Shown piece by piece: positions 6,171-23,107 of a stretch of 23,107 nucleotides of DNA (positions within the stretch are counted from its first letter, which is position 1; each line of letters starts with the position of its first letter). Origin of the DNA: a virus. The stretch covers positions 1-23,107 of IMG/VR virus record IMGVR_UViG_3300000228_000304; one strand, 5' to 3'. The notes beneath the pieces are model-generated. The model did no database searches and had not been told where the DNA came from. It saw only the letters and a list, made by a program, of their open reading frames with translations. Both the position numbers and the translations under genes were made by a program.

Positions 6171-6569
6171 ATGTCAAAATTATTTATAACAAGTGAAGTT
6201 AATGGAACTTCTACTACTGTTAATGGAGTTGTTGCTACTGGTGATTTAGTTAAATTAGTTTCTGGAGTTGCTACGGTAACTACTGTTAATACTGATTTAA
6301 TACTTGGAGTTGCTCATTCTAATGATGGGACTTCTACAATTATAGATTTAATTAATGCTGGAGAGGAATATGTTATACCTACTTCTGCAATTACAACTAA
6401 TAATACTTTTGTTGCTGATGTTGCTGCTGGAAAAATGGCTTCTGTTTATTTTACAGGAACTGCTTTTACTTATGATGCTACTGGAAACACTTTATGTGGT
6501 TACTCTAATAGAAAAGTAAAAGATGGTTACGTAATTAGATTTGTGCCTGCTGTATTAGTTTTTTGCTAA
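6171..6569 (+). CDS. Head decoration-type protein (132 aa)
   Basis: Small Gly/Thr/Val-rich beta protein lying between scaffold and major capsid genes, the usual place of a capsid decoration or stabilising protein. The order VNGVVATGDLVKLVSGV, LILGVAHSNDGTS, then DLINAGEEYVIP is like DUF2190-type/lambda-D-like head proteins; family membership is a tentative inference. Unusually for this genome there is no TGA: all 12 glycines are GGN, so the frame is open in either code. The leader is pure A/T (AATAATAAAT before ATG). It probably shares a transcript with the capsid gene that starts 41 bases downstream. Confidence 0.65.
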   Translation: MSKLFITSEVNGTSTTVNGVVATGDLVKLVSGVATVTTVNTDLILGVAHSNDGTSTIIDLINAGEEYVIPTSAITTNNTFVADVAAGKMASVYFTGTAFTYDATGNTLCGYSNRKVKDGYVIRFVPAVLVFC

Positions 6570-6610
6570 TATAACTAAAAATAAATTTTATAATTAATAA
6601 TTAAAATAAT

Positions 6611-7582
6611 ATGAATATATTAAGTGGAATTAAAATGACTTGAGATCTTGGTGCTTTAATTAAAGGTGTTGACGCTCAAATTCATCAAATATATAATGAC
6701 AATAAAAATTTATCTGAAAAGAAATATACAAAATATTTAAATGTATTATCTGGAGATGGAGCAAGATATAATGTTAAAAATATATCTGGAGCTTCTGTAT
6801 TGAAAAGTGTTGCTGAAAATGGTAAATTACAAGAATTGAATACTTACCTTGGGGCTGAAACTTCTTTCATATTTAAGAAATTTGGTTGAATAATTACTTT
6901 CACATCTGAAGCAATCGAAGATAATGCTTACGCAAGTGAAATGGAAGCTGTTAAAATATTAGCAGTAACTGGAGACGCTACTAAAGAAGTACATGCTGCT
7001 GAAATGTTAAGAACGGGTTGGTCTACAACTTCTAATACTGAATTTCCAATTTCTAAACCAACTGGTGTATCAAGATTGTTCTCAATCGCTCATACATTAG
7101 CAAACGGTGATACATTCTCTAATACATTAGCTAATTCTAATCCTTTATCTGCTGACGCACTTAAAGATATGAAAAAAATGTTAATGGAACAAAAGGCTGA
7201 TGATGGTAAATCTATGAGAAGTTCTGGTAAATTAATATTAATTGTTTCTCCTGCAAATGAAGATTTGGCCATGAGAATAGTTAATTCTGATTTAAGACAA
7301 GGAACTAATAATAATGATATCAATACATTGAAATGAATAGAAGTTGTTGTTGAACCACAATTATCATCTGTATTTGGAGGTAATGATACATCATACTTCT
7401 TGACTGATAAAGGTATGTCAAAATTAAGTCTTGTAAATAGAAAAGATTTTACTCTTGAAACTTCACCAGATTTTGAAACTAAAAACTTAAGAGCTTCTAT
7501 TGATGGTCGTTGGGCTGTTGGTTTCTCTGATGTTAGAGGTATTATAGGTTCAAAATGAGATGGATCAACTATTTCTATTTAA
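6611..7582 (+). CDS. Major capsid protein, HK97-like (323 aa)
   Basis: Main shell protein. Length and layout fit the HK97 fold: a basic N-terminal arm, a region after residue ~80 (YLGAETSFIFKKFGGIITFTSEAIEDNAYAS) that matches the way these proteins enter the P-domain ('treatment/tracker of early TSEAIEDNA' type), a long helix (ALKDMKKMLMEQKADDG) and a C-terminal A-domain (LILIVSPANEDLAMRIV, then GIEVVVEPQL, then RASIDGRWAVGFSDVRGII). The SPANEDLA and DGRWAVGFSDVR segments are what I weigh most. Only 4 of 28 glycines are TGA, against a majority in the tail genes, which suits a highly translated gene. It follows the scaffold and decoration genes and is closed by a strong terminator. Confidence 0.85.
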
Positions 7583-8067: not shown

Positions 8068-8589
8068 ATGTTAGCAGAAACAAAATCAATAACAGCATTA
8101 TCCATAGGTTGATTATTTGCGTATTTATGAATACCTGAAGAAGCGTTTTATCTTTTTGCCATATTGGTAATGATAGATACGTTTACATGATGGATAAAAT
8201 GATTTATACACAAAAATCTATCAAGCGTGACAGCTTTTAAATGAATTATAAGTAAAAGTATTATACTTATAATACCAATAGTAATTTGATTAATAATAAA
8301 ATTAGGAGGTTTTGATGAAGAATGAATAGTTATATCTTGATTTTTCTGAATTATATCACTTATAGAATGATACTCAATCTTATGAAATTTAATGGAAATA
8401 AAAACATGAAAGAAACAGTCAGAATTTGACGCTTTAGAGTTATTTTATAAATTATCACTTATAACATTACAAAAAAATATTGAAAGTTTATTAAAAAATA
8501 AAATGAACTATGATACAAAAATTATACAAACTAAAGAAATTGATTGAAAAAGCAAAAATTCAGAATGAGATATAGAATCTCAAAAATAA
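8068..8589 (+). CDS. Holin, phage holin_4 (Cph1-like) type (173 aa)
   Basis: Forms lesions in the cytoplasmic membrane at lysis and releases or enables the endolysin. Hydrophobic segments lie at about 10-35 (ALSIGGLFAYLGIP, YLFAILVMIDTF), 60-80 (IISKSIILIIPIVIGLIIK) and 86-107 (GIVISGFFGIISLIEGYSIL). The signature of the family is visible: MIDTFTG(W)IKG at 35-45, a Lys-Gly/Ser-Lys pair after the first loop (FKGIISKS), and E-G-Y-S-I-L-G-N near 100-107, matching 'E..SILEN'. The C-terminal 60 residues are charged and cytoplasmic. Glycines in membrane segments are nearly all TGA. The amidase is not adjacent: about 6.3 kb of adhesin genes separate them. Confidence 0.8.
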
Positions 8590-8598
8590 ATGTGAAAT

Positions 8599-8734
8599 AC
8601 TTGATTAGAAGTTGTATAAGAACACGTATAATATATATTGAATGATGTCAGGTTTATATTATTTAAGTGATAGAGAAGTAACACTAGATAAATCACCTAA
8701 TTTTTATACAAAATCTATTATGATTAATACTTAA
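8599..8734 (+). pseudogene. Relic of a tail-protein C-terminus (leader of fibre copy 1)
   Basis: Two out-of-register fragments survive: TGLEVV followed by TAA, then MMSGLYYLSDREVTLDKSPN (8642 onward, stop at 8734). 'GL...YYLSD...' is a frequent C-terminal pattern of phage tail and fibre proteins, so this looks like the frameshifted end of a lost gene. In copies 2 and 3 the same stretch reads MMSDLYYLNDRE, losing the Gly and Ser. Confidence 0.45.
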
Positions 8735-8751
8735 TTTTTAATAATAAAAAT

Positions 8752-9924
8752 ATGACACTAATATCAAATACTCAATATCCAAGCCCTGGTTGAGATCTAA
8801 TAATTGCTATTGAAACACATAATACTAATTCATGAGCTCATGAAAACATTCAAGATGATATTTCACAATTAAATTATCAACTTAACTTAACAAACTGAAA
8901 TGTTACTAACAAAGCAGACCAAGTAACAACTTATACAAAAACTGAAACAAATAATCTTTTAAATACTAAAGAAAATACAGTAAATAAATGAGTTGCTAAT
9001 TGATATGCTAGTCTTGATTTAAATTGAAAAATACCAAACTCACAAATAAATGATGTAATACTTTGACAGTTATATTATATGTGAGTTTATGATTTTTCAT
9101 CTTGACTTCCAACAGCAACAGAAAAAGGGCAATATTGGATATGTTCTATAGCTTGAAACTGATATGAAGTGGGAGATTGGGCTGCTTATAACTGAACTAC
9201 TTTTGATAAAGTAGACAATACTGATGCAGTAAGTTCAGTAGCTGGTAGAACTTGAAATGTAGTTTTAACTAAGACTGATGTTTGACTTGCTAATGTAGAC
9301 AATACAACAGACTTAAATAAGCCTATATCAACATTAACTCAAACAGCTTTAGATTGAAAAGCAAACCAATCTACAACATATACTAAAACTGAAACAAATA
9401 ATTTACTTGATTGAAGGGTAGCTAAAATATCTTCTACAGATAATGCAATAACTAGATTTGATTGAACTACTTGAGAGATACAAAATAGTAGTGTAATAAT
9501 AGATGATAATTGAAACTTAAATGCTAATAGTATTTCTACATCTATAGGATATGGTAGAATATTAACTAAATCAGGAACTACAGATTTACATTCTATGAGA
9601 GTACTCAATATTCCTTATATTGGTGGAGAAAGTGGTTCATTTACTTTTGACCCTGTATTAATATTTGGATTAAATCATCAAGGTGGTAGTGTTAGATTTG
9701 AAGTTAATAGTCGGGAAATGAAGCACTCATTTGGGTATATACAATGGAGAAATAATGGTGATGCTGGTGCTCCACTCAGCACAGGAGTTATTCAATATAT
9801 ATTATTAGATAATAATGGGGTAACTATATCTGTTTCAACAATTACTGATAGTAATACAATAAAAGTAGACATAGATGGTGTTCATACAGGCGAACACGGT
9901 TGGCAATGTAGAATAATAGCATAA
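8752..9924 (+). CDS. Tail fibre protein, copy 1 (390 aa)
   Basis: Adhesin of the virion. After MTLISNTQYPSPGG the shaft region carries standard tail-fibre motifs: TTYTKTETNNLL twice (about residues 59-71 and 205-217), and AVSSVAGRTGNVVLTKTDVG followed by LANVDNTTDLNKPIS and QTALDGKA, a linker seen in many phage fibres. A small Trp-containing domain (KGQYWICSIAGNGYEVGDW) lies between. From about residue 266 a compact beta-rich head follows (RVLNIPYIGGESGSFTF ... GEHGWQCRIIA). Codon use changes there: 19 of 23 glycines are TGA up to codon 254, then all 17 are GGN to the end. The head domain therefore looks imported. ATG chosen because the same start and leader precede all three fibre copies. 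Confidence 0.85.
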
Positions 9925-10536
9925 TAAATATAATTATGGAGTAATATCACAAAAAAATTTAGATAAAAGTATAACTTATGATGTTTGAACTACTACAACT
10001 AATATTAATTGAAATGCTTGACTTTGAATTTCAAAAGAAACAAATAATTAAAAATAATTTATAACCAATTTTTTATAATAAAAGATCATAATTAATTTTC
10101 TATTAATTTGATTTGAACCAGGATATTTTATTAAATACCTAACTCAGACTAAACACTGACTTATTTAACTATAAATCAAATAATAGAAGTAATCCTTTAT
10201 ATTTACAGACAATTACAAAATTAGAATTTAGATTTATTTAATGAAATATAAATATGAATTATTCTACTTTAGAAAATATATTAAGAACTGAACTATTAAA
10301 ATTTACTTGAGAAAAAGTTTATAAAAAAATAGTTTTAAATAAAATAAATTGGTATGATAATAAGTCCAGGAAAATAATAAGAGATTTTTAATATATAATA
10401 CAAAACATTTCTTTTCAGATACAGCATTTACCGCTTGAAAAACTGTAGTTTGGTAATTTATATAAAAGCTAAATGATATCAACAATAACAATCTTTTACA
10501 ACTTCAAGCACTACTATTACAATGACTTATATAGCA
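9925..10536 (+). pseudogene. Gene debris downstream of fibre copy 1 (612 bp)
   Basis: No complete gene. Fragments in different frames look like remains of tail proteins: QKNLDKSITYDVGTTTTNIN ending with a stop at about 10048; FEPGYFIKYLTQTKHGLI near 10117; FSDTAFTAGKTVVW with a stop near 10455; and TSSTTITMTYIATGLEVV crossing into copy 2. TGA-as-Gly is still evident, so the source genes used the same code. The 45-codon frame at 10254 is listed separately. Repeated exactly at 11863-12474. Confidence 0.5.
10254..10391 (+). CDS. Short frame within debris, doubtful gene (45 aa)
   Basis: ATG to TAA reading MNYSTLENILRTELLKFTGE then a lysine-rich end, with one TGA=Gly. It has the usual A/T leader with T before ATG. 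It is bounded on both sides by broken frames, so it may be the N-terminal stump of a lost gene rather than a working one. Confidence 0.3.
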
Positions 10537-10689
10537 ACTTGATTAGAAGTTGTATAAGAACGTGTATAATATATATTGAATGATGTCGGATTTATATTAT
10601 TTAAATGATAGAGAAGTAACACTAGATAAATCACCTAATTTTTATACAAAATCTATTATGATTAATACTTAATTTTTAATAATAAAAAT

Positions 10690-11862
10690 ATGACACTAAT
10701 ATCAAATACTCAATATCCAAGCCCTGGTTGAGATCTAATAATTGCTATTGAAACACATAATACTAATTCATGAGCTCATGAAAACATTCAAGATGATATT
10801 TCACAATTAAATTATCAACTTAACTTAACAAACTGAAATGTTACTAACAAAGCAGACCAAGTAACAACTTATACAAAAACTGAAACAAATAATCTTTTAA
10901 ATACTAAAGAAAATACAGTAAATAAATGAGTTGCTAATTGATATGCTAGTCTTGATTTAAATTGAAAAATACCAAACTCACAAATAAATGATGTAATACT
11001 TTGACAGTTATATTATATGTGAGTTTATGATTTTTCATCTTGACTTCCAACAGCAACAGAAAAAGGGCAATATTGGATATGTTCTATAGCTTGAAACTGA
11101 TATGAAGTGGGAGATTGGGCTGCTTATAACTGAACTACTTTTGATAAAGTAGACAATACTGATGCAGTAAGTTCAGTAGCTGGTAGAACTTGAAATGTAG
11201 TTTTAACTAAGACTGATGTTTGACTTGCTAATGTAGACAATACAACAGACTTAAATAAGCCTATATCAACATTAACTCAAACAGCTTTAGATTGAAAAGC
11301 AAACCAATCTACAACATATACTAAAACTGAAACAAATAATTTACTTGATTGAAGGGTAGCTAAAATATCTTCTACAGATAATGCAATAACTAGATTTGAT
11401 TGAACTACTTGAGAGATACAAAATAGTAGTGTAATAATAGATGATAATTGAAACTTAAATGCTAATAGTATTTCTACATCTATAGGATATGGTAGAATAT
11501 TAACTAAATCAGGAACTACAGATTTACATTCTATGAGAGTACTCAATATTCCTTATATTGGTGGAGAAAGTGGTTCATTTACTTTTGACCCTGTATTAAT
11601 ATTTGGATTAAATCATCAAGGTGGTAGTGTTAGATTTGAAGTTAATAGTCGGGAAATGAAGCACTCATTTGGGTATATACAATGGAGAAATAATGGTGAT
11701 GCTGGTGCTCCACTCAGCACAGGAGTTATTCAATATATATTATTAGATAATAATGGGGTAACTATATCTGTTTCAACAATTACTGATAGTAATACAATAA
11801 AAGTAGACATAGATGGTGTTCATACAGGCGAACACGGTTGGCAATGTAGAATAATAGCATAA
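10690..11862 (+). CDS. Tail fibre protein, copy 2 (390 aa)
   Basis: Same sequence as the fibre at 8752-9924, at an offset of 1938, including the TGA-rich shaft and the TGA-free C-terminal head domain. Two identical genes could raise fibre dosage or be a transient intermediate of unequal recombination. Perfect identity over about 1.2 kb indicates a very recent event or continuing gene conversion; a collapsed or over-expanded repeat in assembly is an alternative. Confidence 0.85.
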
Positions 11863-12474
11863 TAAATATAATTATGGAGTAATATCACAAAAAAATTTAG
11901 ATAAAAGTATAACTTATGATGTTTGAACTACTACAACTAATATTAATTGAAATGCTTGACTTTGAATTTCAAAAGAAACAAATAATTAAAAATAATTTAT
12001 AACCAATTTTTTATAATAAAAGATCATAATTAATTTTCTATTAATTTGATTTGAACCAGGATATTTTATTAAATACCTAACTCAGACTAAACACTGACTT
12101 ATTTAACTATAAATCAAATAATAGAAGTAATCCTTTATATTTACAGACAATTACAAAATTAGAATTTAGATTTATTTAATGAAATATAAATATGAATTAT
12201 TCTACTTTAGAAAATATATTAAGAACTGAACTATTAAAATTTACTTGAGAAAAAGTTTATAAAAAAATAGTTTTAAATAAAATAAATTGGTATGATAATA
12301 AGTCCAGGAAAATAATAAGAGATTTTTAATATATAATACAAAACATTTCTTTTCAGATACAGCATTTACCGCTTGAAAAACTGTAGTTTGGTAATTTATA
12401 TAAAAGCTAAATGATATCAACAATAACAATCTTTTACAACTTCAAGCACTACTATTACAATGACTTATATAGCA
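11863..12474 (+). pseudogene. Gene debris downstream of fibre copy 2 (612 bp)
   Basis: Exact second copy of 9925-10536, with the same out-of-frame tail-protein fragments and no complete gene apart from the doubtful 45-codon frame at 12192-12329. Confidence 0.5.
12192..12329 (+). CDS. Short frame within debris, second copy, doubtful (45 aa)
   Basis: Identical to 10254-10391 at an offset of 1938. Same reservations: probably the stump of a lost gene. Confidence 0.3.
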
Positions 12475-12669
12475 ACTTGATTAGAAGTTGTATAAGAACG
12501 TGTATAATATATATTGAATGATGTCGGATTTATATTATTTAAATGATAGAGAAGTAACACTAGATAAATCACCTAATTTTTATACAAAATCTATTATGAT
12601 TAATACTTAATTTTTAATAATAAAAATATGACACTAATATCAAATACTCAATATCCAAGCCCTGGTTGA
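12475..12669 (+). repeat. Partial third copy of the tandem unit (195 bp)
   Basis: Repeats the first 195 bases of the unit: the relic leader, the A/T-rich start region and the first 14 codons of the fibre gene (MTLISNTQYPSPGG). It then departs into a different fibre gene. This segment is the likely site of the unequal crossover that made the duplication. Confidence 0.95.
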
Positions 12670-13398
12670 AGCCCTGGTTGAAGCCCTGGTTGAAGCCCTG
12701 GTTGAAGCCCTGGTTGAAGCATTGAGATTTATGAAAATTTTACTAATTGAGTATCATCACTTGACACATCTTCTTTTTTTTGAACTACAATAGCAAGTTC
12801 AGGTTGAGCATATTGAACTATAAATAGTAATCTTTATGAATCTAATATTGAACCATGAAATACATTTTTTTGATGTTCAAGTTTTTTAAGTAATTGAACT
12901 GCTAGTGAACTTAATACAGCATATATATCTACGTTTGTAAATAACAGATATATAAAATTAAATACATTGAGTTTATTTGAAATTGAAAATAGAGTTGCTT
13001 TTTTACAAAGCAATAATTCCAAATCTCAAAATATAAGATTTTGATTAACTAATTCTACAAGTATATCAACATCTAATACTGATTCTATATATATAGAATA
13101 TATATCTGAAACTTGAGTATTAAGTTTAATATCAAAATCAGCATGAAATAAAGTCTCTGTAATATTAAAAACTTTTACTAATTCTGAAGCAAAAATATTT
13201 TCTAAAATAAAAATCACATATGATTGAACTTCTATAAAATGATACATTAATAATGTATTATTATGAACTATTACAACTAATATTCCAATAGATGTATGAC
13301 TTAGATATATACCATATCAAATATATATATCTAAGTCAAGTGTTATTAGTCGGTCATTCCTTGATTACTTTTACGCAAAATTCAACTTTAACTACTAA
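12628..13398 (+). CDS. Lectin-like tail fibre with SPGG repeat linker (256 aa)
   Basis: Shares leader and first 14 residues with the two upstream fibres, then diverges. Residues 11-30 are five SPGG repeats, a flexible linker. The rest reads as a concanavalin A-like jelly roll: SIEIYENFTNGVSSLDTS at the start, ISTFVNNRYIKLNTL, then KIKITYDGTSIKGYINNVLL (a typical lectin/LamG strand pair, 'YDG..I.GYINN..LG'), and a final SFLDYFYAKFNFNY like the closing strand of such domains. Glycines are mostly TGA along the whole length, unlike the head domain of the upstream fibres. Probably a receptor-binding protein with carbohydrate specificity. The next fibre gene begins 12 bases later. Confidence 0.75.
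12658..12717 (+). repeat. 12-bp tandem repeat, five units
   Basis: AGCCCTGGTTGA repeated five times without error; each unit encodes Ser-Pro-Gly-Gly, with the second Gly as TGA. The upstream fibres have a single unit at the same place. The unit length is a multiple of three, so gain or loss changes linker length without shifting the frame. Confidence 0.97.
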
Positions 13399-13410
13399 TA
13401 AAAATAAAAT

Positions 13411-14103
13411 ATGGAAAGAACTGTTTGAAACAATAGACTTATAGATGGTATTAAATTAGACACTATAAACCTAAACGTTTCATGAAAAGTAAATACTACT
13501 TCTATTGCAGATTGAACTGTTTCTGACGCTGAATTACAAACATTAAATTGAGTTACTTGAAATATACAACACCAAATTGATAGTTTAGAATCAAGAAATC
13601 TTACTCCAGAACAATCAAGCGCATTAAATTGAGTTACTTGAAATATAGAAGTTAGACTTGATAACCTTGAATGAACTGATTTATGAGATGCTGCGTTGAA
13701 ATCATGAAATAATACATTTACATGAGCTAATGTATTTAATAATACAACTTGATTTTGAAGGGCTGTATACTGAAACCCAGTTTCAAATACTTCTGGTTCT
13801 ACTATAACAGTAGATTGTAGTCAATCAAATAACCAAAAAATAACAATATCTGAAAATACAACTATTAAATTTGAAAATTTATTCCAATGAACTGTATTTA
13901 ATTTTGAATTAAACCTTACTTGAGTTTATACTATAAATTATGTATGTAAAGCGTTACCAGGTAATACAATTGTTCCAATGTATTCTGAAGGTTGAACTAA
14001 ACCAACATTTACAAATAGTGGAGTTTATCATATAACTCTTAAAATGTCAGCGGTTGCGTGTCATTTTATGACAAGTTGAAAATTTTTAGAATTTACTAAC
14101 TAA
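13411..14103 (+). CDS. Coiled-coil tail fibre protein (230 aa)
   Basis: N-terminal MERTVGNNRLIDGIKLDTIN leads to a shaft with a repeated LNGVTGNI motif (about residues 45-52 and 72-79), each followed by a heptad-like stretch (QHQIDSLESRNL; EVRLDNLEGTDL), as in trimeric phage fibres. Then comes ALKSGNNTFTGANVFNNTTG, the common 'A.L.GNNTFTG.N.F' fibre connector, and a beta-rich C-terminal domain (STITVDCSQSNNQKITISEN ... VYTINYVCKALPGN ... MTSGKFLEF) of the kind that caps receptor-binding fibres. Most glycines are TGA. It lies 12 bases after the lectin-like fibre and 11 before the propeller gene, so all three are likely cotranscribed. Confidence 0.8.
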
Positions 14104-14114
14104 TTTATAAAAAT

Positions 14115-14891
14115 ATGCTACATGCACTTTGATTTGTAATAAAACAAAAAATAAAAGAAATAATAACTGAGGTGATTACAAGTGTTAGGGTTATAAGTCC
14201 TACCTATTCACCAGATTGAAATTATATAGTATATACAAATGGTTCAAATTGAAAATTATATAAAAAGGATGCTAATGATGTTAGTGATTGATCTGTTATT
14301 ACATCAGTATGATGATATTTTCCTACCTATTCACCAGATTGAAATTATATAGTATATAAAAGTAGTTCAAATTGAAAATTATATAAAAAGGATGCTAATG
14401 ATGTTAGTGATTGAATACAAATTACAAATCATATATCAAACTTCCCACAATATTCTCCAGATTGAACTTATATTATATACTTTGATAATACTCCTCTTTT
14501 AAGAAAGAAATTATCAAGTGATACAAATAATTGAGATATAATAGTACCTTGAAAATTAGCTTCATATTGAACTTATTCACCAGATTGAAATTATATAGTA
14601 TATACAAATAATACTGATTGAAATGTATTATATAAAAAGAGTTCAACTGATGCAACTGTATGAGTTCAAATAAGTAATAACCAAAGTCGATGAGTTAATA
14701 CATACTATGATAATTGAAATTTTATGCTTTATGAGTTTAACTCAAATATATATAAGAAAAATCCAAATGATACTTGAAATTGATCTATATGGATCAATAA
14801 TGCCACAATGTATGATACTTTTAATAATCAGTATATAATATATAGAAACTCTTCTGATCAAGGAAGATTATATAGAACTAATAATATATAA
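14115..14891 (+). CDS. Six-bladed propeller protein, TolB/PD40-like (258 aa)
   Basis: After a short amphipathic N-terminus (MLHALGFVIKQKIKEIITEV) come six repeats with a period of 41 residues: SPDG at 32-35, 73-76, 114-117 and 155-158, with weaker equivalents near 197 (YYDNGNFMLY) and 238 (NNQYIIY). Each repeat reads YSPDGNYIVY...NGKLYKK, the PD40/WD40-like blade of TolB. Six blades make a closed propeller, so nearly the whole protein is one domain. Such propellers bind proteins or sugars; among fibre genes this suggests a receptor-binding tip, which is inference. All four SPDG glycines are TGA. Blades one and two are almost identical in DNA, showing recent internal duplication. Confidence 0.8.
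14199..14291 (+). repeat. Propeller blade repeat, copy 1 (93 bp)
   Basis: Nearly identical to 14322-14414, at an offset of 123 bases (41 codons). The visible differences cluster at one place (ACAAATGGT against AAAAGTAGT). A third, more diverged match starts near 14574. Confidence 0.9.
14322..14414 (+). repeat. Propeller blade repeat, copy 2 (93 bp)
   Basis: Second copy of 14199-14291, encoding the second blade of the propeller protein. Near-identity at DNA level means blade number could change by recombination. Confidence 0.9.
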
Positions 14892-14902
14892 CATATAAAA
14901 AT

Positions 14903-15520
14903 ATGAATATTCTTGAAACTAAAAAAAAGAACTGAAAAAATACTTGTAAATACATAATGCTTCACCACACAGCGATGTGAAGTGATAGAAATTGATTACA
15001 GGCAGCAAATTTACTATCAACTGGTGAAAAAGAAGTATCTTGCCATTACGTTGTGTGAAAAGATTGAACTGTATGGAAAATAGGAGAAGATACTGATAGA
15101 TTATGGCACGCTTGAAGTTGAAATTATGATTGAATAACTGATATGAACAGCAACGCTATATGAATTGAAGTTGATAGTAATTGAATTGACTTTACAAAAG
15201 AACAATTTAATATTACATTAAAACTTGTAAAAGATTTAATATTAAAATATAAAATATCAGATAAAAATGTAATAAAACATGCTGATTATACAGCAAGAAA
15301 ATGGGATATTTGAGATAATTTCTTCAAATTTTGTTGAAAAGATATAAATGATTTCAGAAAATTACTTATAATTAATGAAGATGAATGATTTTATGAAAAA
15401 ATATTTAATGAAAAATATAATTGAGTTTCAAGTATTTATTCAGATATGAATACATCGAAAGAAAAATTATGAGATGTTGCTTTCTTTGTAGCACTATGAC
15501 TTGAAAGACTTAAAAAATAA
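14903..15520 (+). CDS. Endolysin: N-acetylmuramoyl-L-alanine amidase (205 aa)
   Basis: Amidase_2 (T7-lysozyme/PGRP-like) zinc enzyme that cuts the bond between muramic acid and L-alanine in peptidoglycan at lysis. Visible: MLHHTAMGS with zinc ligand H21, SCHYVVGKDGTVWKIGED at 46-63, RLWHAGSG (66-73), NAIGIEVDSNG (84-94), FTKEQ (97-101), VIKHADYTARKWDIGDNF with ligand H126 and D135. The last ~45 residues (GFYEKIFNEKYNGVSSIYSD onward) form a small extra helical domain, perhaps a cell-wall anchor. This gene is the best proof of the code: 16 of 18 glycines are TGA, including those in KDGT, HAGSG, IGIEV and DIGD, where the family has glycine, while W58, W68 and W134 are TGG. No signal peptide, so export relies on the holin, which is encoded about 6.3 kb upstream. 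Confidence 0.92.
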
Positions 15521-15531
15521 CAAAATAATTT

Positions 15532-18051
15532 ATGGAAAACACTAAAAATATAGATTTAATAGGAGTATTTAGTAAATGATTTGTTTATGATGACAATAAT
15601 ATCAATACAAGTCAAGTATTTTGACGTGTATCGCAAAATACAAGAAATTGAATTTGAACTATAAAAAATCGTAAATGATACGCATTATTACAAGAGTTAT
15701 GAGTAGTTAGTGGTGAAGAAATTAAATCACTAACTGCTCATGATTCAAAGATTTTAACAGAATATGATTGAGATTTATATGTTTCTAATGAAAGCCTTAA
15801 TTTATATATTAATAAATGAGTGATAAATACTTGACTATGAACTACAGCATACTGAAATACTACAAAAACTATTTGAGATATTGCTATTATAGCAAATGGT
15901 TGAGATATGCAGTATTATGATAAGAAAGATTGATTACTAAAAACAATAACAAACCCATATAATGATATAGGAGATATATGGGAAACAGAACAAGATGATA
16001 TAGTAGGAGATAAATTGTGAAAATGGACTTGAATAGTATCTAATGATGAAGCAACTATAATTATAGCGGTTGAAAATGATTGATATATTTACAAATCACT
16101 TAATTATGGTGAAACTTTTACTCAAAAATGAAGTATAGCATGATATGTTTGAGTTTGTATGTCAAGTGATTGATTACATGTATATGCTTTGGCATATCAA
16201 GAAAAATCAAATGTGTCAAGTGCTGATCAATCTTGAGTTTATTATTCAAGTAATGGTTGAGAAACTTTTACAAAAACTCTTACTAATAATAATACATTTT
16301 GGAACGCAATTACTTGTTCTACTGATTGAAGTAAAGTTTATATTGCTTGACACTCTTGAGATACCTCTGTTTGAAAAGTTTTTAAATCTTCTGATTATTG
16401 AACTACATTTACTGAAGTATTAATTTGAAAAGATTTTGTATGAATTTGAACTAATTCTACTTGAACTAAAGTTATAGTATGAGTAAAAAATTGAAAATTA
16501 CAATATTCTACTGATAATTGAACTACATTTACTGAAAAAGGTGAAAGTAAAATATATACTTCAGTATTTATGAATAGAGATTGAATTATTTACTTTTCTG
16601 AATGAGTTAATTTATATAGATCTGATAATGAACTTATTTGATCTACTATTATATTAAACTCTAACAAGTATGAAACAACTTGATTTAGAATAAGTGGAGA
16701 TAATTTAATTAAAATAGATTGAAAAGAGTTTATATCAATACAATGATCTACAAAAGAATGAATATACCTTGCTACTTGTTATAATGGTGCTATATTTGCA
16801 AGTTTTGATGGTTGAATTACTTGGGATATATTAAATACTCAAATTGATAACTATACTTCAGTATTCGTAAATGAAAATTGTGATGAAACTCAATGAGTTT
16901 TACTATCAACTTCATATAATTGATACATAAAAAGAAGTAGAAATTCAATTAAGTTTAATCCTTCAATTATAGAAATGTATAATAAAAGATTATATATAGC
17001 ATGATTATCAAATAGAAAATCAACATTAATAACATCTCAATGATTTATAATAAATGAAAGAGACTTAATTGATTTTTGACCTAATAGAATTAGAAAACCT
17101 GTTATATCAGTAAGAGAAGGTGATATTGTATGAATAAAGGCGAGTTGAAATAACTTATATTTATTTGATACTATATGAACCCTAATGCTAACCTGATTTA
17201 ATTGAGCTATAAACCCAGTATTTGAATATCTTGACAAAAGCACCGTTCCAGTGTCTAATAAAACAATTGTTACTGCTGATAATTTAGTATTTGTATTAAC
17301 AAGAGATAAAAAGATAAAGTCAATATGATATACTCCTTGAATAACAAACCCTTCAATAGCTGAGTTATCAAATTTAGAATGACAATCTATTCAAAATTAC
17401 TTAAATGAAGTTTTAGACAATAGTCAAGAATTAGCATTTTGATACTTCTACGATCCTGATAAAACAGTAAAATTTCACGTTAGAAGTAAATGAAGTTCAT
17501 ATAATAATTTAGTAATAGTATATGATATGGTAAATAAAACATTCCATATTGATACTAATAAGAAATTTTGAAGTTATTGTGTATTGAATTGAAAATATTA
17601 TACTTGATCTAATATAGATTGAAAAATATTTCAAGATGAAACATGAGCTAATGATAATTGAGTTGCTATCACTTCAATTAGAGAACTTAAATTATTTGAT
17701 TTTTGAGACTCAACAGTTTCAAAAATAATGAGAGAATTAAGATTATCATGAATGATAGATTTGAATACAACTATACATATGAAATTATATGCTGATGAAG
17801 AATTAGTATTTGATGAGATTATATCACGTAGTTTAGTTGATAATCAATTTTATTGAAATAAAGTAGAAAATAAACTATATCAATTCAGAAAAGAAATGTC
17901 AAAATGAGATATATACGCTCGTTGATATACTTATAAGATAGTTTTTGAAGCAACATGAACAACTGAAAGTATTTGATTTGTATTAAATCAATTATCTACA
18001 AGAGTTTGAGGAGTTTGATTAATTTGAAAGAATGAATTGTTTGAAAAATAA
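15532..18051 (+). CDS. Large tail protein with Asp-box propeller (839 aa)
   Basis: Largest gene. Residues ~170-450 contain five Asp-boxes (S-x-D/N-x-G-x-T-F/W): SLNYGETF 189-196, SSNGGETF 239-246, SSDYGTTF 286-293, STDNGTTF 326-333, SFDGGITW 424-431. These mark a sialidase/BNR-type beta-propeller, though no sialidase catalytic set is evident. The N-terminus (IDLIGVFSKGFVYDDNNINT, then KNRKGYALLQELG) and the C-terminal half (NNLVIVYDMVNKTFHIDTNK, YCVLNGKYYTGSNIDGKIFQ, then AITSIRELKLFDFGDSTVSK) resemble podoviral tail hub or stabilisation proteins (P22 gp10/T7 gp12-like propellers); this is the likelier role, with moderate certainty. Glycine is overwhelmingly TGA. Ends just before a terminator, as last gene of the rightward late unit. 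Confidence 0.7.
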
Positions 18052-18101
18052 AATATAAGTATATAAGAAAAATTAATGATAAACTAAAATATTTATATTA
18101 C

Positions 18102-18138
18102 AAAAAAAAGGCAATGATAAACATTGCTTTTTTGTTTT
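18102..18138 (+). terminator. Intrinsic terminator ending the rightward late unit
   Basis: GCAATG (18111-18116) pairs with CATTGC (18122-18127) across a 5-base loop; the flanking A-run and T-run extend the stem with one bulged G, and the T-run gives the release tract. It lies 51 bases after the large tail gene. Confidence 0.85.
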
Positions 18139-18150
18139 AAGTTATATTTA

Positions 18151-18167
18151 TATAATTATAATTTGAT
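18151..18167 (+). promoter_or_regulatory. Promoter-like motif, one-mismatch copy
   Basis: TATAATTATAATTTGAT differs at one base from the 17-mer in the terminal repeats. It lies just after a terminator and 41 bases before the ATG at 18209, which indicates independent transcription of the secreted protein gene. Confidence 0.55.
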
Positions 18168-18208
18168 TTTTTACATGTTTATATTATTACAAATAATACT
18201 TTATTATT

Positions 18209-18790
18209 ATGAAATTATTTATTATGAAACTATTTACAATAATTATTTTATATTTTTGTTATATACAAACAACAAATTGAATGACAAATGAAGAATTTAT
18301 AGAAAAATTTGGAGATACGCATAAAATTATATGATGTTATAATACAAAATCTTGAGAAATATCACAAATAAACAATAGACAAAACTGTTTAAAAGGTAAA
18401 AACTTTCAAAATATACTAATTCCTCCTAAATCACATATAGAAAAGTATTTTATTGTGTATGATAATTACAATGATATAATTAAATCATTACCAACAGAGA
18501 ATTCTGAAAGTTGATTTAATGAAAATGCTGAAAATTGACACGCAAAATGATACGTTCAAACATTAAAATCATATAATATTAAACCAGAGATAGTATCACA
18601 ACTTACATGGAAAAAAAACAGGCAAGATTCACAATTAAATAATAAGAAACAATGTTGATATTATGAAAAATGAAGCGTGGATCAACAAAAATGCATATAT
18701 AGATACCATTATCATTCAAAAAAATGATATAATTATGCAGAAAAATCATATAAATTATATGAATATTATAAAAACTATTTTTGAATATAG
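18209..18790 (+). CDS. Secreted protein, possible lysozyme-like fold (193 aa)
   Basis: N-terminal signal peptide: MKLFIMKLFTIIILYFCYIQ then TTNG, with probable cleavage near residue 24. An alternative ATG is residue 6. The mature part holds four cysteines (43, 60, 149, 162), consistent with two disulfides outside the membrane. Residues 99-121 (SESGFNENAENGHAKGYVQT, with E100) resemble the catalytic segment of lytic transglycosylases (E-S-x-F-N-x-N-A...G-x-x-Q), so a murein-cutting enzyme is possible, but the rest of the fold is not recognisable. Flanked by its own terminator-promoter pair, it looks like an independently expressed accessory gene. A superinfection-exclusion or host-surface role is equally open. 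Ends with TAG. Confidence 0.65.
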
Positions 18791-21341: not shown

Positions 21342-22025
21342 TTAATTATTATTTTCTTCTTTATTATCATATCATTGATTTTTGAATATTCTTTGTCTTA
21401 ATAATGGTTTCGCTAATAAGTTAGTTAATTCTTCAGTTGATAATTTTGATAAATCAGGCATTTCTTTTAATTGAAATGATTCCATTTGTTCTATTTTAAT
21501 TTTATTACTATATTGAGATATAGTTCATAGTATTAAGGCAACCGCAGCTGGGTTGTACACACCATTTACAGCACCTCATGCCATATCATTAATTAAATGA
21601 CCTTGAGATAAATTAATAGCTTCTTCATATGTTTCATGAGTTCATTCCCAAGCAAAATGCGTATTGGCATGTATTCAGTTTGAAGATATAAAACCCTCCA
21701 TTACATTAATTCTACTCTTTTCTATAAACCCAAATTCGTTTGGATCAAGATTATGTTTTACTTTACGGAAATACTCAATCATTTTTCTTGGTAAATCTTT
21801 CGTATATATACGACCTTTATGATTATATAATTGCGGCGTAGTATATCTATCAACAAAAACACTTTTATAAGATATTCTTGCTAATTCCTCTTCAGTGAAA
21901 TCTTTATATGATTTAGAACGATTAAGATATTCTTTTATATTATAATCTCAATCTAAATCTAATTCTTTTAATATAAAGTATCACTCCTCCATATTATCTA
22001 CTATCGTTGTGTGTAAATCGTTCAT
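21342..22025 (-). CDS. terS: Terminase small subunit (227 aa)
   Basis: Recognises viral DNA and regulates the large subunit. The call rests on the central region: RKMIEYFRKVKHNLDPNEFG then helix-turn-helix-like material, followed by NTHFAWEGTHETYEEAINLS (like 'W...peF.eA...a'), and HLINDMAGGAVNGVYNPAAV with ALILGTISQYSNKIKIEQ, which matches the 'G..nG.ynp..a.f.Lkn' signature of many TerS proteins. The C-terminal tail (FQLKEMPDLSKLSTEELTNL) is the oligomer/TerL-contact type. Order TerS, small gene, TerL on one strand supports it. The start at 22025 overlaps the upstream nuclease by 32 bases; a second ATG at 21992, one base after that gene's stop, is an equally plausible start (216 aa). Confidence 0.8.
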
Positions 22026-22512
22026 ATTTTAGTGTTAATAAATATTCTTCAAAATATCATTTATCAATAACATCTTTCTTTATAGAAATTAATTGTTTAT
22101 TATATTTTAATTCAAATAATTTCTTTTTTAATTTGAATGTATCTGTTTCTACTCATTTAGCATCAACAACCAATTCAATTCAATTATTTAATATCAAAAC
22201 AAAATCTGCAATATAATCACTTCCTCTATTTTTTATTTTTCATATCTTAAATTCATATCATTTTCATAATTTCTTTTTAATAAATGATAATCAATTTATT
22301 TTATACTTTGGTATAAGTTCAAAAGCAACCTGAAATTTTACATCAATTATACCATACTTTTCTTGGAAGTCAATATTATATAATATATCAAATAATCTTG
22401 CTTCAAGTAGTGAGTCTACTATAACCTCGGTTCAATCAGGAAGATTTCTCTTCGATTTTATATTTCAATATTTATTCATTGATCTTACTCACCTTACTCT
22501 TTGCAGTTTCAT
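21994..22512 (-). CDS. DUF1064-type phage nuclease (172 aa)
   Basis: DUF1064 proteins are small phage PD-(D/E)xK nucleases, thought to act on DNA in replication or packaging. Visible: MNKYGNIKSKRNLPDGTEVI (12-31, the usual opening), VDSLLEARLFDIL with E37, FQVAFELIPKY (60-70), YIADF with D103, and VVDAKGVETDTFKLKKKLF with D117 and K119 as the catalytic D-x-K. Glycines in the DAKG and NNGIE segments are TGA. I start at 22512 because an A/T leader typical of this genome (TTTAATAAAT) precedes it. Alternatives are 22560 (longer) and 22479 (starting MNKYGN, preceded by AAGGTGAG, the nearest thing to a Shine-Dalgarno here). Confidence 0.8.
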
Positions 22513-22595
22513 ATTTATTAAATTTATAAAGTAAATCTTCAACTTTTTACAAGCACTCATCTCTTAAACGTTCGCATTCAGTTTTATCTTTTGTA

Positions 22596-22925: not shown

Positions 22926-23002
22926 TTTTCTTGTAATTAAATTATATTTGGTGGTGAGATTTCAACTTCTCATTTTACATGATAAAAAGTTTTAATAAAA
23001 AA

Positions 23003-23019
23003 ATCAAATTAAAATTATA
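23003..23019 (-). promoter_or_regulatory. Promoter-like motif for the leftward operon
   Basis: Minus-strand exact copy of TATAATTTTAATTTGAT, within the right terminal repeat, 77 bases before the ATG at 22925. The leader between (22926-23002) contains a small TGAGA/TCTCA hairpin and no gene. Confidence 0.55.
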
Positions 23020-23107
23020 TTTTATTATATTTTTTTTAATAATCTCTTAAGTTCTATTGTTCTAATTAGAACAAAAAACTTTTATATATTTATTTATATA
23101 AGTTTCT
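23003..23107. repeat. Right terminal inverted repeat (105 bp)
   Basis: Exact reverse complement of bases 1-105. It carries the same 18-bp palindrome (23057-23074) and, on the minus strand, the same promoter-like motif (23003-23019), which faces the leftward packaging operon. Together with the left copy it gives the two outermost transcription units identical upstream DNA. Confidence 0.97.

Follow-up and report, generated by a model that had tools for sequence, protein, structure and literature searches.

A probable leader-mediated duplication of a mosaic tail-fibre gene in a code-25 phage

How does a phage come to carry the same tail-fibre gene twice, head to tail, with the leader of that gene repeated a third time in front of a different reading frame? 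The question is raised by a viral record of 23107 bases; this window is the complete IMG/VR virus record. The sequence-only reading of the locus described a 1938-bp unit that occurs twice, with its first 195 bp a third time, and this proves exact on offset comparison, since positions 8599-10731 equal 10537-12669 at an offset of 1938 apart from five sites. The same reading held that leader copies 2 and 3 are identical and that copy 1 departs from them by five transitions, which we confirm: copies 2 and 3 agree at 195/195 bp (10537-10731 = 12475-12669), and the five differences (copy 1/copy 2: 8624 A/G, 8625 C/T, 8650 A/G, 8652 G/A and 8667 G/A) are all transitions, inside 44 bp. The longest exact repeat measures 2064 bp (8668-10731 = 10606-12669), a length that excludes chance. 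While this description of the repeats stands, two features of the locus were overlooked in that reading, namely its recoding in genetic code 25 and the TGA-free tip of the fibre. The features of the array are collected in Table 1.

Table 1. Coordinates of the features of the fibre array and its surroundings in the window.
Feature	Position	Strand	Evidence or remark
First unit, consisting of leader A, the fibre ORF and the spacer	8599..10536	+	Offset comparison, 1938 bp
Second unit, with leader B; fibre ORF and spacer identical to those of the first	10537..12474	+	Offset comparison, 1938 bp
Third leader, B-type, with 14 codons, before a different ORF	12475..12669	+	195 bp
Five variable sites, copy 1	8624..8667	+	Counterparts: copy 2, 10562-10605; copy 3, 12500-12543
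126 bp identical across the three leaders, proposed crossover zone	8668..8793	+	= 10606-10731 = 12544-12669
Diagnostic junction of 128 bp, from the last B-type site to the first base of the fibre body	10605..10732	+	Present only if the duplication is real
Fibre ORF copy 1, with 390 aa and 19 in-frame TGA when read in code 25	8752..9924	+	PHROG matches, codon table, homologue alignment
Fibre ORF copy 2, identical protein	10690..11862	+	ORF calling in code 25
TGA-free fibre tip, from codon 266	9547..9924	+	Copy 2 at 11485-11862; codon counts
Orphan 41-codon frame without a start, Gly mostly TGA	9926..10051	+	Copy 2 at 11864-11989
Candidate fibre ORF of 256 aa after leader 3, different from the duplicated one ('lectin' of the sequence-only reading)	12628..13398	+	ORF calling, structural match
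12-bp repeat AAGCCCTGGTTG x5.3, encodes Ser-Pro-Gly-Gly	12657..12720	+	Repeat search

The record is that of a tailed phage using code 25, in which TGA encodes Gly. Open reading frames of at least 150 codons cover 72% of the window in code 25 versus 2% in code 11. Among the 26 tabulated ORFs, TGA makes up 294/450 glycine codons, and the stop codons are TAA or TAG throughout, with TGA never used as a stop. In an alignment of the fibre with four standard-code homologues, TGA faces Gly at 35/57 aligned positions, and the residue most often aligned with TGA in the terminase is likewise Gly (93/214, versus a background of 4.5%); the capsid gene has 4 TGA codons only and is uninformative in this respect. 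Under the standard code each fibre gene leaves a 109-aa open fragment and nothing longer. It is because TGA is read as Gly, the only way in which these genes are readable, that each can be recognised as a 390-aa tail fibre. At 6171-7582, we see glycine encoded by TGA in 0/12 cases in a decoration-like gene and 4/28 in the capsid gene, with 11/12 in the adjoining scaffold-like gene.

Profiles recognise the capsid (Pfam Phage_capsid_4), a terminase, a holin and an amidase. No portal was recognised in the window: structural proteins from two distant relatives, portals among them, matched the capsid and terminase only, and the record may be incomplete despite its inverted terminal repeats. These repeats lie at 1-110 and 22998-23107, with the first 105 bases forming the perfect reverse complement of the last 105; genes converge from both record ends, and inverted termini are unusual next to a terminase. 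They may mark the real ends of the genome or stem from the assembly. On the minus strand at 21994-22560, a Holliday-junction-resolvase-like protein (PHROG 190, DUF1064, E=4e-16) is a candidate player in recombination. A profile search with the capsid returned distant homologues only, none of which shows code-25 behaviour. Capsid and terminase searches for close relatives revealed no relatives of the terminase, nor did a TGA-bearing Walker A pattern, and a TGA-bearing pattern for the fibre motif had zero matches elsewhere, though it does match the window. The absence of sister strains means little, because the scans may omit near-identical records. Absconditabacteria and Gracilibacteria have known phages that use code 25, and phages compatible with code 11 have been described from these hosts as well (PMC10746230). 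The record resembles the code-25 phages of these hosts in its dense in-frame TGA for Gly and its TAA/TAG stops.

The duplicated gene matches the minor tail protein family PHROG 13892 (E=4.1e-36, residues 55-234), and there are further PHROG matches. Its likeness to tail fibre and minor tail proteins of the PHROG 13892 type extends over residues ~55-260, including the stretch GRTGxVxLTKxDVGLxNVDNT, whereas the N-terminal 14 codons and the C-terminal tip have no match in proteins of this type. The end of the family similarity coincides with a break in TGA use between codons 254 and 266. Codon 254 (9511-9513) is the last TGA of the gene, and glycine is encoded by TGA at 19/23 positions in codons 1-254 versus 0/17 in codons 266-383 (Fisher p=7e-8). 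A change-point analysis gave a log-likelihood ratio of 17.1 for the fibre and at most 4.8 for every other gene. The last ~125-135 codons are thus free of TGA, and the fibre is a mosaic. The tip was probably taken over from a standard-code donor, which does not use TGA for Gly, too recently to have gained TGA. Prediction of the tip structure without an alignment gave an unusable model.

Beyond the stop codon, the spacer of each unit (9925-10536 in the first copy) holds several short open fragments that lack a start, some of them with TGA, and one of which reads KLNDINNNNLLQLQALLLQGLI. These fragments are possibly the remains of older fibre genes. The orphan 41-codon frame at the head of the spacer had no phage match, and may derive from the C-terminus of an earlier fibre.

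The leader itself is not purely untranslated-looking, as its variable sites lie within a 41-codon open frame (8609-8731). Three of the four changed codons in this frame are non-synonymous, and so there is no sign of selection on it. A similarity between the encoded peptide and capsid residues 269-293 (E=0.004) was dismissed, because 3/300 shuffles equalled it in a comparison with 24 proteins, before correction for the fragments tried. The leader has no unusual RNA fold, and its promoter-like sites show no excess over shuffles. Searches with an exact 35-mer, with a degenerate ISNTQYPSP pattern and, in phages, with the array itself (blastn) found neither the leader nor the N-terminus that it encodes in any other sequence. 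A recent common origin accounts for the DNA identity that the leaders show even in their non-coding part, with no need to invoke functional constraint. The sequence-only reading assigned virion attachment to the end encoded by the shared codons, and suggested that fibre bodies could be swapped behind the leader; this role of the 14 codons is putative, and such swapping is hypothetical.

Behind the third leader, the divergence from the fibre ORF falls within the 12-bp Ser-Pro-Gly-Gly repeat. The ORF that follows belongs to no PHROG family, and its only Pfam match is a weak one to DNA_mis_repair, below the cut-off. Its sole PDB match includes the collagen-like SPGG repeat, and a model made without an alignment reached a pLDDT of 32, which is too low for fold comparison. 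Its designation as a lectin is therefore unproven. Further downstream, a beta-propeller-like ORF (PD40, E=1e-15) contains 123-bp tandem repeats at 14198-14473, of which the first two are 97% alike; this is another young duplication close to the fibres.

With a probability of roughly 0.6, we propose that the array is real, that it arose in a code-25 phage by recombination between leaders, and that the fibre had received an imported tip before it was duplicated. In the ancestor, one fibre would have stood behind leader A and the other ORF behind leader B, with the two leaders already different at the five sites. The fibre would then have acquired its tip from a source that used the standard code or was compatible with code 11; the join would lie at the boundary usual in the family, and TGA-coded scraps of the older end may have been left downstream. 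More recently, the leaders would have paired out of register, and homologous recombination within their 126 shared bp would have duplicated the 1938-bp unit and given the order A-fibre-B-fibre-B-other. The tip is the same in both copies, which would place its acquisition before the duplication. As no relative carrying the leader or the tip was found, we infer the donor and the order of events.

The sequence-only reading had proposed a single crossover between leaders A and B. The structure and the B-type middle leader fit this proposal exactly, although other histories fit too. If the array is real, a crossover within the 126 bp that follow the last variable site is the simplest history. Crossing over among the variable sites is predicted to leave a mixed middle leader, and crossing over upstream of them an A-type one; the B-type form is the likely outcome because 126 shared bp lie after the last variable site, as against 25 bp before the first. 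The perfect identity of the copies implies either that the event was recent or that the copies have been homogenised. Copy number in the array is probably variable, because the 2064-bp exact repeat can recombine again.

A tandem array known from an assembled record may also be a product of assembly, in which case the genome would hold leader A, the fibre, leader B and the other ORF once each, and a loop at the 126-bp segment was walked twice. Versions of the array with one, two and three copies were built, and their k-mer contents were compared. The one- and two-copy versions have identical k-mers up to k=127 and show a single difference at k=128, so that an assembler working with short k could traverse the loop twice, and the perfect identity of the copies over 2064 bp is what such a double passage would leave. 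The shortest path through the loop gives one copy, however, and to write two an assembler would presumably need some signal from coverage or linkage; with k of at least 128 or with long reads, the junction from leader B to the fibre should have been present in the reads. On balance we consider an artefact doubtful, though a serious contender. The two- and three-copy versions have the same k-mers up to k=2065, and two copies may therefore be a minimum, if the duplication is real. A real duplication might also have been produced without a reciprocal unequal crossover, by replication slippage or template switching, or by excision of the unit as a circle and its reinsertion. The final structure would be the same, and the young tandem repeats nearby (12-bp x5.3 at 12657-12720 and 123-bp at 14198-14473) show that duplication of the slippage kind does occur in the fibre region. 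We nevertheless think these routes distinctly improbable, as the endpoints of the unit lie in a pre-existing leader repeat, where homologous recombination would place them.

The origin of the tip can be questioned separately, because a native tip shaped by codon-use selection would be compatible with any of these readings of the array. The decoration and capsid genes are TGA-poor as well, so low TGA use alone is not proof of foreign origin, and no homologue of the tip that might represent a donor was found in phages, viral contigs or genomes. Recoded relatives of the tip may have escaped these scans, because glycine was back-translated as ordinary codons. Against a native origin, the switch from 19/23 to 0/17 is abrupt, occurs within a single ORF and a single transcript, and falls where the similarity to the family stops. 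Import is favoured because expression level cannot differ inside one ORF, and we regard a native tip as unlikely.

Tandem duplication at a fibre locus has a precedent in the Enterococcus phage EfV12-phi1, where 1.8-kb tail-fibre duplications differ in copy number between reads (PMC6365445). The two arrays are alike in their identical head-to-tail copies at a fibre locus and in their similar unit size (~1.8 kb in EfV12-phi1). The precedent therefore shows that fibre tandem duplication is real as a kind of event, and not new. In EfV12-phi1 the repeated segment lies in frame within one fibre gene, the setting was experimental coevolution, and variable copy number was demonstrated by coverage, PCR and long reads; here, the array is known from sequence alone, the unit comprises a whole gene with its leader, leader repeats stand at its ends, and the phage is an uncultured one that uses code 25. 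Two other systems that vary phage fibres were considered and set aside. A diversity-generating retroelement does not fit, as there is no reverse transcriptase in the 20 proteins scanned and the changes, among them C/T, fall outside the fibre ORF. An invertible fibre cassette of the Mu/P1 type does not fit either: the region 8400-18300 has no high-identity inverted repeats (the longest is 52 nt, at 73%), and no invertase occurs among the 20 proteins scanned. The comparison in PMC10746230 is made between codes per genome, and in the part of that paper compared here no mosaic within one gene is described. Code-25 phages and fibre duplication are thus already known, while no earlier description of a change in code usage inside one fibre gene was found in the literature compared, as far as the parts consulted extend.

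The 128-bp junction can be spanned by a single read of 150 bp, so the reality of the array and its copy number can be checked cheaply in existing reads. Tentatively, and at rather less than even odds, we suggest that TGA-recoded phages keep an expandable fibre array with shared leaders, which is refitted with receptor-binding tips from standard-code phages. A recoded host could translate such tips, because a gene that lacks in-frame TGA can be read in either code. Codon reassignment should limit gene exchange in a single direction: a code-25 host can read code-11 genes as long as their stop is not TGA, and TGA-rich genes are unreadable outside such a host. A recoded fibre body joined to an unrecoded tip would be a domain-level marker of such import. 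If this is true, host-range modules would be imported one-way across the genetic-code barrier.
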